In this document: positions 20,721 to 22,359 of the stretch, one piece after another
How the letters are laid out: every line of letters begins with the position of its first letter
Numbering within the stretch: the stretch's first letter is position 1
Virus record (IMG/VR): IMGVR_UViG_3300025695_000104
Span: 1-22,545 of that record
From: a virus
Strand: one strand, 5' to 3'
Length of the DNA stretch: 22,545 bases
Notes under the pieces: generated by a model
The model's database searches: none
Told to the model about the DNA's origin: nothing
What the model saw: only the letters and a program-made list of their open reading frames with translations
Position numbers and translations under genes: made by a program

Positions 20721-20969
20721 TTATGTGTTTGTTGAATATCTATTTCCGCTTTCCTTTCTAGTACCTTGCCCCTCATTACCTCGATTCGATTTCACAGAAA
20801 CAAATCTTTGACGCTTATGATCATAGTCCTGACCTTTAGCCTCGTGAGGATTTTCTCTTCGCTTACGCTGTGCATGTGCTTTTTTAGCCTTCCTAGCAGG
20901 GGACATTGCATAAGCCTTATCTCTAGCAGCCTTAGCTCTTCTAGCGGATGGTGAAAGTTTTTGTCTCAT
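20721..20969 (-). CDS. Small arginine/lysine-rich protein, first gene of the late block
   Basis: This 82-aa protein has about one third R+K and few hydrophobics. It begins MRQKLSPSARRAKAARDKAY, continues AMSPARKAKKAHAQRKRREN, and ends in a glycine/asparagine tail (QDYDHKRQRFVSVKSNRGNE). The start contains two SP-x-A/R motifs. From memory, relatives with the DYDH and SVKSNRG blocks occur in other marine phage structural regions without known function. It is likely a nucleic-acid-binding or virion-internal protein, or an early-translated late regulator. It opens the minus-strand block right beside the divergent control region, so it should be the first product of the late transcript. Confidence 0.65.
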   Translation of the reverse strand: MRQKLSPSARRAKAARDKAYAMSPARKAKKAHAQRKRRENPHEAKGQDYDHKRQRFVSVKSNRGNEGQGTRKESGNRYSTNT

Positions 20970-21358
20970 ACATTGTATGATTACGTCTTTTTATTATGTT
21001 TTAAAAATGCGACATTAGCCTGCTACTATTATATATAATACCCTATCGTCGCACTGTATAACAGAAAAAAAATAGTAAAAAATTTTTTGTTAATTATATA
21101 GAGGTTTTGTGTTACGCTACGCTATACATTTTTTTTTAAGTATTTGGGAAATGCTTTTATTTTTACCAGTCCCCGTGTTGTTTTTACGTTTTATTCAGGG
21201 TTTTCCACGTTTTGCTGTGAATATATCAGGAACTAATCAAACTATTTTTATATTTTTAGATATATATTTTTGACTTTTTAGGCAAATTTAATACGTGGTT
21301 ATTTAGATAATATAAGTGTAATAAAAATAAATAAATAATAACTTAAAAAATAAAAATT
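20970..21358. promoter_or_regulatory. Divergent non-coding control region between late and early blocks
   Basis: No ORF is supported in these 389 bp. Visible structure: ACGTAAT on the minus strand (20986-20980) near the first late start; an inverted repeat TGCGAC (21008-21013) / GTCGCA (21048-21053) that encloses a 14-bp palindrome TATTATATATAATA (21027-21040); an A6T6 tract (21077-21088); the duplicated pentamer in TTACGCTACGCTA (21112-21124); two ACGTTTT copies 21 bp apart (21186, 21207); a lone TATTTTTG (21265-21272) fitting the Bacteroidota -7 box, but with no TTG at the expected distance; and the first early element (21283-21321). The region must hold promoters in both directions. An origin is possible but not shown. 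Confidence 0.6.
21283..21321 (+). promoter_or_regulatory. Early repeat element, copy 1 (candidate phage-specific promoter)
   Basis: CAAATTT, then AATACG, then exactly 9 nt, then AGATAATATAAGTGTAA. It ends 37 nt before the ATG of the 36-aa gene. The same blocks with the same spacing occur at 21471 and 22167. The A/T-rich stretch after it (AAATAAATAATAAC) is also shared. Confidence 0.6.
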
Positions 21359-21469
21359 ATGATACCTTACGAGTATAAACTAGAATTAGCTATGGCTAAT
21401 ACGGATATGGATCTATGTGATCTGATTGAATTAGATCCAAATGAACTGGATGAATTGATAGGATTTTAA
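21359..21469 (+). CDS. Tiny acidic protein, first early gene
   Basis: This 36-aa ORF reads MIPYEYKLELAMANTDMDLC, then DLIELDPNELDELIGF. It has about ten D/E and a single K, with leucines spaced for an amphipathic helix in the second half. It follows the first copy of the early element and uses the same AAAAATTATG start context as the 107-aa gene, which is the main support that it is real. Short acidic phage peptides often bind a host protein or mimic DNA, but nothing here shows which. Not a recognised family. Confidence 0.55.
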   Translation: MIPYEYKLELAMANTDMDLCDLIELDPNELDELIGF

Positions 21470-21470
21470 A

Positions 21471-21509
21471 CAAACTGAATACGAAGTATAAAAGATAATA
21501 TAAGTGTAA
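21471..21509 (+). promoter_or_regulatory. Early repeat element, copy 2
   Basis: CAAACTG, AATACG, 9 nt, then AGATAATATAAGTGTAA. It starts one base after the stop of the 36-aa gene and ends 29 nt before the ATG of the 107-aa gene. The last 17 bases are identical to copy 1. Confidence 0.6.
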
Positions 21510-21538
21510 ATAAATAATAACAATTAAATATAAAAATT

Positions 21539-21862
21539 ATGACAAATCAAGAATTAATTACTCAAGCAATTGCAAACATGACTAATGAAGAGAAAGCTAA
21601 AATCTTTCCACCAATCGAAAGAAAAAACTTTGTAGTGAGAAAAAGTTGGCTAGGACGAAATCAAATCATCACCTTTGTAAACAACAAAAATCAAAAAGTA
21701 ACTTACAATCACGATGTAATACTTGAAGCAATGTTACCTAAACTAAGTATAATGCCATGTTGGATCAAAAGAGGTTACTGGTCACAATCAACTAACTTAC
21801 CTTCTACCGTTAGACATCTAGCTGAGTTTGAAGAACTAGAAGAGGTTGCTACTGAAAAGTAG
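21539..21862 (+). CDS. Early protein of unknown function
   Basis: This 107-aa protein begins MTNQELITQAIANMTNEEKA, a likely helical start. A basic beta-rich core follows (FVVRKSWLGRNQIITFVNNK, then NQKVTYNHDVILEAMLP), then MPCWIKRGYWSQSTNLPSTV and an acidic tail (EFEELEEVATEK). The central strand pattern with aromatic and basic residues could be a small nucleic-acid-binding fold, but I see no diagnostic motif and do not recognise the family. It is expressed from the second early element and has the AAAAATTATG leader typical of Bacteroidota. It is the largest gene of the early set visible here, and a short GC-rich hairpin follows its stop. Confidence 0.8.
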   Translation: MTNQELITQAIANMTNEEKAKIFPPIERKNFVVRKSWLGRNQIITFVNNKNQKVTYNHDVILEAMLPKLSIMPCWIKRGYWSQSTNLPSTVRHLAEFEELEEVATEK

Positions 21863-21866
21863 TAGC

Positions 21867-21884
21867 TTCTCCCTCGGGGGAAAA
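21867..21884 (+). other. Short GC-rich hairpin after the 107-aa gene
   Basis: TTCTCCC-TCGG-GGGAAAA folds into a stem with three G-C pairs, flanking A-T pairs and one C/A mismatch. It is a GC island in very AT-rich sequence, 5 nt after the stop. There is no U-tract, so a standard intrinsic terminator is unlikely. mRNA 3'-end protection is an alternative. Confidence 0.35.
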
Positions 21885-21922
21885 CAGATAAGATCATATA
21901 AATAAAATTAAACCTATAAATT

Positions 21923-22018
21923 ATGAAAAAATTGATAAAAGTAATAGTATACATAACAGTATTGACGCTTGGTATTATCGTAATATATGATGCGATAGTA
22001 AACGGATCTAACCTTTAA
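21923..22018 (+). CDS. Single-span membrane micropeptide
   Basis: This 31-aa ORF starts MKKLIKVIVYITVLTLGIIV and ends IYDAIVNGSNL. One hydrophobic segment (about residues 5-23) follows a positively charged start, fitting a single inner-membrane helix with the N-terminus inside. The start context is TATAAATTATG, like its neighbours, and the next gene follows 10 nt after its stop. It has no full early element upstream, only a loosely similar AGATAAG..ATATAA, so it may be read through from the 107-aa gene. It could be a membrane-acting early protein, such as one for superinfection exclusion, or a small holin-like peptide. Position among early genes makes lysis less likely. Confidence 0.55.
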   Translation: MKKLIKVIVYITVLTLGIIVIYDAIVNGSNL

Positions 22019-22028
22019 AACAAATAAT

Positions 22029-22190
22029 ATGGATTTTTACGATAAAGAAATAGAAACATTATACAATACGCTTAGATCAATGATCAGCCCAGAATCTGAT
22101 AGTATTTTGTACGATCTTGCTCAAAAAGCAGATGACTTAAAGTTTGAAAATACAAATCTAAAATTACAAACTAAGTACGAGTGTAAATAG
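22029..22190 (+). CDS. Small helical early protein
   Basis: This 53-aa ORF begins MDFYDKEIETLYNTLRSMIS and ends NTNLKLQTKYECK. It looks helical and acidic in the first two thirds, with a short coiled-coil-like second helix. It follows the membrane micropeptide by 10 nt with the start context AAATAATATGG. Its last codons lie inside the third early element (22167-22205), so coding and regulatory sequence overlap there. No family is recognised. Confidence 0.6.
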   Translation: MDFYDKEIETLYNTLRSMISPESDSILYDLAQKADDLKFENTNLKLQTKYECK

Positions 22191-22205
22191 ATAATATAAC
22201 TGTAA
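22167..22205 (+). promoter_or_regulatory. Early repeat element, copy 3, overlapping a coding end
   Basis: CAAACTA, AGTACG, 9 nt, then AGATAATATAACTGTAA. The first 24 bases are also the 3' end of the 53-aa gene. It ends 19 nt before the ATG of the 44-aa gene. The 11-mer AGATAATATAA is identical in all three copies. Confidence 0.6.
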
Positions 22206-22224
22206 CAAATAAACAATAACAATT

Positions 22225-22359
22225 ATGAAACAAAACTTAATACAAGAAATCTGGGAATACTGTAAACACACACACAACGATCAAGACTATAAAGACTTAC
22301 AAGAGTTTTCAGTAGAAGAATTAAAAGAAATATTAAATGATATAAAAATAGACTATTAA
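22225..22359 (+). CDS. Small early protein
   Basis: This 44-aa ORF begins MKQNLIQEIWEYCKHTHNDQ and continues with VEELKEILNDIKIDY. It is probably two short helices, acidic overall, with C13, H15 and H17 close together (YCKHTH). It is preceded by the third early element and the leader AACAATTATG, which supports translation. The next small gene starts 11 nt downstream. Too short for a family call. Confidence 0.6.
   Translation: MKQNLIQEIWEYCKHTHNDQDYKDLQEFSVEELKEILNDIKIDY

Follow-up and report, generated by a model that had tools for sequence, protein, structure and literature searches.

The three repeated elements described here are confirmed members of a promoter family, ACAAACTAAATACGA-N8-AGATAATATAA, that is present in dozens of phage genomes in IMG/VR. 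They occur in a stretch of DNA, hereafter called the window, that comprises positions 1 to 22,545 of IMGVR_UViG_3300025695_000104. Given the sequence characteristics of these promoters and of the genes that accompany them, it is probable that they are read by the host core RNA polymerase working with a phage-encoded sigma factor. Specifically, a sigma-70-family protein of ~252 aa that carries regions 2 and 4 and is encoded outside the fragment would bind the host core polymerase and direct it to ACAAACT (about -36 to -30), to an additional TACGA box (-26 to -22), and to GATAAT(AT) (-12 to -7). Transcription would then begin at a purine seven bases downstream, and the small genes would be read one by one, in some cases from leaderless mRNAs.

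Promoter copies in the window

The window, 22.5 kb in length, is part of the genome of an uncultivated tailed phage. Its minus strand holds structural genes and genes for GroEL and a GroES-like protein, and a block of small genes begins on its plus strand. The hosts of phages with related portal proteins are Flavobacterium, Cellulophaga, Maribacter, and Tenacibaculum, and therefore the host of this phage is likely flavobacterial. The relevant features are as follows:

20721..20969, minus strand: first gene of the divergent late/structural block
21008..21053, no strand assigned: 46-bp palindrome TGCGACATTAGCC..CCTATCGTCGCA, 38 nt upstream of the first late minus-strand ORF
21280..21324, plus strand: promoter copy 1, PWM score 24.6 (-35-like CAAATT 21283-21288, TACGT 21292-21296, -10 GATAAT 21306-21311, inferred +1 G 21318)
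21359..21469, plus strand: ORF of 36 aa downstream of copy 1, inferred leader 41 nt
21468..21512, plus strand: promoter copy 2, PWM score 34.8 (-35-like CAAACT 21471-21476, TACGA 21480-21484, -10 GATAAT 21494-21499, inferred +1 G 21506)
21539..21862, plus strand: ORF of 107 aa downstream of copy 2, inferred leader 33 nt
22029..22190, plus strand: ORF of 53 aa whose 3' end is shared with promoter copy 3
22164..22208, plus strand: promoter copy 3, PWM score 40.1 (-35-like CAAACT 22167-22172, TACGA 22176-22180, -10 GATAAT 22190-22195, inferred +1 G 22202)
22225..22359, plus strand: ORF of 44 aa downstream of copy 3, inferred leader 23 nt

The original prediction described a 39-bp early element with fixed internal spacing that recurs on the plus strand at 21283, 21471, and 22167. 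The blocks indeed begin at these positions and are separated by a fixed gap, but the extent of 39 bp is too short, as conservation reaches from about -37 to +6. The pattern ARTACG-N9-AGATAATATAA has three exact matches in the window, all on the plus strand (at 21290, 21478, and 22174), compared to a mean of 0.56 matches in the shuffled window with up to 3 mismatches allowed. The PWM was derived solely from the copies of other phages, with the window excluded, and its maximum is 5.8 on the minus strand and in the rest of the window, and 16.3 over 200 Markov shuffles. The weakest of the three is copy 1, with its TACGT and CAAATT boxes.

Each copy is followed by an A/T-rich leader and then by a small plus-strand gene, as had been proposed. 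In addition, the predicted overlap of one copy with the end of a coding gene is seen for copy 3, which lies on the end of the ORF at 22029-22190, and copy 2 sits directly behind a stop codon. A PHROG search with the 107-aa ORF gave no match. A scan of the window for E. coli-type TTGACA-N17-TATAAT, which performs at chance level, called no copy on the plus strand, and an Rfam scan gave no match at the three copies.

A promoter family with a predicted start site

A scan of related phages had been suggested as a check on the original prediction, and the element does recur: at least 119 viral stretches in IMG/VR match TACG-N9-AGATAATATAA, with up to 6 copies per locus among the matches listed. The consensus of the aligned copies is TTACAAACTAAATACGA-N8-AGATAATATAA, followed by W-T-R, and a genome typically carries 4 to 11 copies. 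Whole records show nearly all copies on one strand, grouped in a single block of several kb, ahead of consecutive small genes. The 76 viral loci recovered by homology to the sigma gene discussed below contain 289 motif sites, all of them on the sigma strand, and shuffled or reversed sequence contains none. With both halves scored independently, the gap is 9 nt in 210 of 215 pairs. A collection-wide control with a gap of 11 nt (N11) returned 115 stretches, none of them multicopy among the matches listed, and the upstream box is present in 6 of 80 cases at N11 versus 92 of 116 at N9.

A blastn search of cultured phages with the consensus gave no full-length match, and a search of ~50,000 phage records turned up no member that carries the motif or this sigma factor. 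Strings of GTGTATAGCA upstream of some copies were rejected as a signal, being scattered and forming no pattern. By eye, the aligned flanks place some promoter copies directly behind apparent tRNA 3' ends (L096, L098, L103, L115, L122, and L161). One 129.5-kb record, G025 (L227-L233), seemingly consists of two related phage genomes joined head to tail, with an array, a sigma gene, and a helix-turn-helix (HTH) gene in each half; this double structure is probably an assembly join.

For the +1 statistics, 249 sites were picked without the use of any base past GATAAT. At the seventh position past this hexamer, 99% of these sites have a purine, and at the position before it 87% have a pyrimidine. 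A start codon falls exactly on this purine position at 24 of 238 sites (37 of 299 with redundant sites included), 18 start codons in total are found across all twenty positions upstream of it, and a second main peak of start codons is located at +19 to +22. Based on the purine/pyrimidine signature and the start-codon positions, we infer that +1 is the seventh base past GATAAT. Because some start codons lie exactly on this base, a tenth or so of the mRNAs (about 10-12%) are predicted to be leaderless.

Relative to this predicted start, GATAAT spans -12 to -7, TACGA -26 to -22, and CAAACT -35 to -30. The layout is that of a sigma-70-type promoter, with boxes near -35 and -10 at near-constant spacing, and with a purine start ~7 nt past the -10 hexamer that is preceded by a pyrimidine. 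The two separated protein contacts that had been suggested from the window alone are thus matched by a -35/-10 geometry with a fixed gap. The misfit to the Bacteroidota TTG / TAnnTTTG promoter also holds, with GATAATAT at -12 to -5. Flavobacterium sigmaA promoters carry TAnnTTTG at -12 to -5 and TTG/TTTG near -33 (PMC9723704). Because TAnnTTTG also begins at -12, the GATAAT box is found in the same place as the flavobacterial sigmaA box, but has a different sequence. The motif would give a map of a whole regulon, accurate to +1, from sequence alone.

In some sigma loci, an identical GATAATATA is preceded by a different upstream half at the same place. The upstream half is CACGGACTT in type B, which has 5-7 copies per genome, and CTCACCNRTTAAATAATTT in type C. 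A common alignment of types A, B, and C reads YACRRAYTWA at about -37 to -28, and only type A has the TACGA box. Which base occupies -13 (G, T, A, or C) depends on the genome.

The predicted sigma factor and other candidate readers

The original prediction proposed a search for a sigma-like gene outside the window. Such a gene is found in relatives, where a sigma-70-family protein of ~252 aa is encoded downstream of the array in every genome with a complete block. A 251-aa protein in the motif-strand block matches PHROG 351, a phage sigma family, with E=1e-22, and its Pfam matches are Sigma70_r2 (PF04542) and Sigma70_r4 (PF04545), corresponding to regions 2 and 4. Its PDB profile matches are to sigma factors only, including FliA at full length, and the top Foldseek matches of its AlphaFold model (mean pLDDT 76) are all sigma factors. 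Among the 76 loci, the array is present as type A, B, or C wherever enough upstream sequence is available, as expected of cognate promoters.

Motif-bearing records without the sigma gene, including the window, end soon after the array. The window stops 340 nt after copy 3 and holds no sigma gene; because the fragment ends there, the gene belonging to this phage is presumably out of view. Four relatives that are cultured or have complete genomes (MW202828, phi14:2, Panino, and elemo) carry neither motif nor sigma gene. No close relative of the sigma factor was found among the phage records of the collection, and its occurrences in the genome collection are confined to contigs that had been binned into metagenome-assembled genomes, apart from two distant clostridial proteins.

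Covariation was examined across 34 phages by Mantel tests and partial correlations, with the neighboring primase as a control. For the -14/-13 positions, the strongest correlate of motif distance is sigma region 2, with a partial r of 0.44 when primase is controlled for and of 0.34 when region 4 is controlled for as well. For the -35 box, it is region 4, with values of 0.34 (primase controlled for) and 0.24 (primase and region 2). Primase distance shows no residual correlation with motif distance in these phages. This tracking is the pattern expected if the sigma factor reads the boxes, and the primase control lowers the contribution of shared ancestry but leaves some of it. Covariation between the -13 base and individual sigma columns was rejected because it is confounded by one monophyletic clade. 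Of the two readers named in the original prediction, the phage factor redirecting the host enzyme is the likely one, with its gene located beyond the window in relatives.

Three points count against a phage sigma factor as the reader. First, the array precedes the sigma gene, with the nearest promoter site a median of 2.7 kb upstream, and another promoter must therefore start sigma expression. Counts of host-type TTG-N18-22-TAnnTTTG are at shuffle level, and a promoter for the sigma operon was not found in this way. Second, the TACGA box would be an unusual sigma contact. Third, some shared ancestry persists in the Mantel tests, and the HTH partner described below varies along with the sigma factor. 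Because the array lies ~2.7 kb before the sigma gene and no host-type promoter for the sigma operon was found, the term “early” should be taken as “early or middle,” and the array genes could be expressed at either time.

It is unlikely that these elements are instead immediate-early promoters used by the host polymerase with a host sigma factor, leaving the phage sigma for late genes only. The array does open the non-structural block and lies upstream of the sigma gene, as first-read genes would, and the late genes also need a factor and are without any motif copy. However, the flavobacterial sigmaA box at -12 to -5 is TAnnTTTG, and no described host motif resembles GATAATAT (PMC9723704). Moreover, the motif is long and genome-specific, it is absent from sigma-less relatives with related hosts, and its variants track the phage sigma.

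Another arrangement, analogous to that of MotA/AsiA, would be host polymerase with host sigma and a phage activator (the HTH partner) on the upstream half. An upstream half too long for a sigma factor alone could be explained in this way, as could its differences between phages (types A, B, and C) next to a constant GATAATATA, and the HTH protein is encoded alongside the sigma factor wherever upstream sequence is available. There is also precedent in the MotA box, which is centered at -30 and is combined with an unchanged -10 (PMC2988021). We nevertheless regard this arrangement as quite unlikely: the -10 is not of the host type, divergence of the HTH protein adds nothing for the upstream half once the sigma factor is accounted for, and the better HTH-linked site is a palindrome over the HTH start codon. 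An activator role for the HTH protein could be combined with a phage sigma factor.

Recognition by a virion-carried phage RNA polymerase of the crAss-like or N4-like kind seems very improbable. These phages are distantly related to crAss-like groups, and some of their virion proteins, at 2,500-3,700 aa, are of unassigned function, but a -35/-10 layout with +1 seven bases past the -10 is of the sigma-promoter type, and a sigma gene is present instead. Comparison of the giant proteins with PHROGs, Pfam, and PDB sequences gave no polymerase match. The phage RNA polymerase offered as the other possible reader in the original prediction has no recognizable candidate among the large proteins that were examined, the giant ones included. 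A 3,710-aa protein of one virion block (L247:5970-17102, minus strand) contains an AAA/zeta-toxin-like kinase domain at residues 2586-2733. Finally, a non-promoter repeat acting at the RNA level, in recombination, or in packaging would also be multicopy, oriented, and A/T-rich, but is scarcely credible given that many copies end at or a few nt before a start codon and would be mostly untranscribed, that Rfam yields no match, and that two blocks at a fixed gap are joined by a +1 initiator signature.

The HTH partner, the palindrome, and known systems

Encoded just upstream of the predicted sigma factor, mostly with a 14-nt gene overlap, is a protein of ~206 aa with a C-terminal helix-turn-helix. 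All whole genomes have this gene, as do all sigma loci that extend far enough upstream; the relatives MW202828, phi14:2, Panino, and elemo all lack it. One example (L266:9370-10002; AlphaFold pLDDT 87) has homologs across the sigma loci. Searches of PHROGs and the PDB with the protein found nothing, Pfam gave weak HTH matches only, and one unnamed viral model resembles it. The HTH partner was rejected as the reader of TACGA, as no unique association with TACGA or the -35 box is seen after controlling for the sigma factor.

A palindrome, TGTGACANTAGCC..GGCTAATGTCACA, with an arm offset of 33-35 nt, lies over the HTH start codon in 31 of 53 representative loci. It is also found at the late/early junction in relatives, usually 30-62 nt ahead of the first late gene. 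Occurrences of TGYGACANTAGCC..GGCTAATGTCRCA include window positions 21008-21053, sites at about 616 and 2131 in L259, and further sigma loci. We infer that the HTH protein may bind this palindrome. A tentative and rather doubtful extension is a three-part switch consisting of the phage sigma factor, an obligate HTH partner of unknown family, and the three-box promoter, in which the upstream half is swapped between phages and the -10 is constant. In this scheme, the HTH protein would also bind both copies of the 46-bp palindrome, the one at its own start codon and the one at the late-operon start, and a single cassette of two genes would thereby activate the array and set the timing of the late genes.

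Phage sigma regulons are already known. In phiEco32 and Salmonella phage 7-11, a phage sigma factor with its own conserved, low-copy promoters uses the host core polymerase (PMC4331800), and the putative pairing described here is likewise between a phage-encoded sigma factor and well-conserved promoters of its own. However, the promoters of those phages serve middle and late (structural) genes and have a short TGATGT/TATA core (PMC4331800), whereas the present copies are outside the structural block, are bipartite with an added TACGA box, and probably function in a bacteroidote host. The T4 middle promoters (AsiA/MotA) similarly combine a -10-type box with a phage-specific upstream box that replaces the usual -35 (PMC2988021). 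T4 keeps the host sigma70, however, whereas the present phages encode a sigma factor and have a -10 unlike that of the host.

There is also a likeness to sigma-28/FliA, whose full length is covered by the profile match and whose GATAA is present in the -10. The FliA consensus is GCCGATAA; its -35 sequence and spacing differ, and the gene studied here is a phage gene, not a flagellar one. Flavobacterium sigmaA promoters are similar in that leaders are short and a fraction of the mRNAs is leaderless (5.5% for the host, PMC9723704, versus about 10-12% predicted here), but have TAnnTTTG in place of GATAATAT and lack the specific ACAAACT and TACGA boxes. The crAss-like virion RNA polymerase systems, as in phi14:2, belong to distantly related phages; however, phi14:2 is without motif and sigma, and no polymerase was found among the motif-phage proteins examined. 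The literature searched contains no description of a sigma regulon in crAss-like or flavobacterial phages. What is new is the sigma/promoter family, its three-box design in which the upstream half can be exchanged, the invariably present HTH partner, and the palindrome that links the cassette and the late operon.

Phages of this family are common in aquatic metagenomes, and the promoters of their hosts differ from the textbook type. The system may show how a widespread virus group takes control of its host. Dozens of natural promoter variants are each paired with their own sigma factor, which makes recognition of the -10 and -35 directly testable, and the promoters and sigma factor could become an orthogonal expression tool in flavobacteria.

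A search for late-promoter motifs yielded only TATATTATATNATGGC in the start region of one late gene. This sequence is located on the late strand at the start of a conserved late gene (MAKK..) in G019, G004, G029, G018, G030, G002, and G025, and is possibly a late promoter or an initiation signal.
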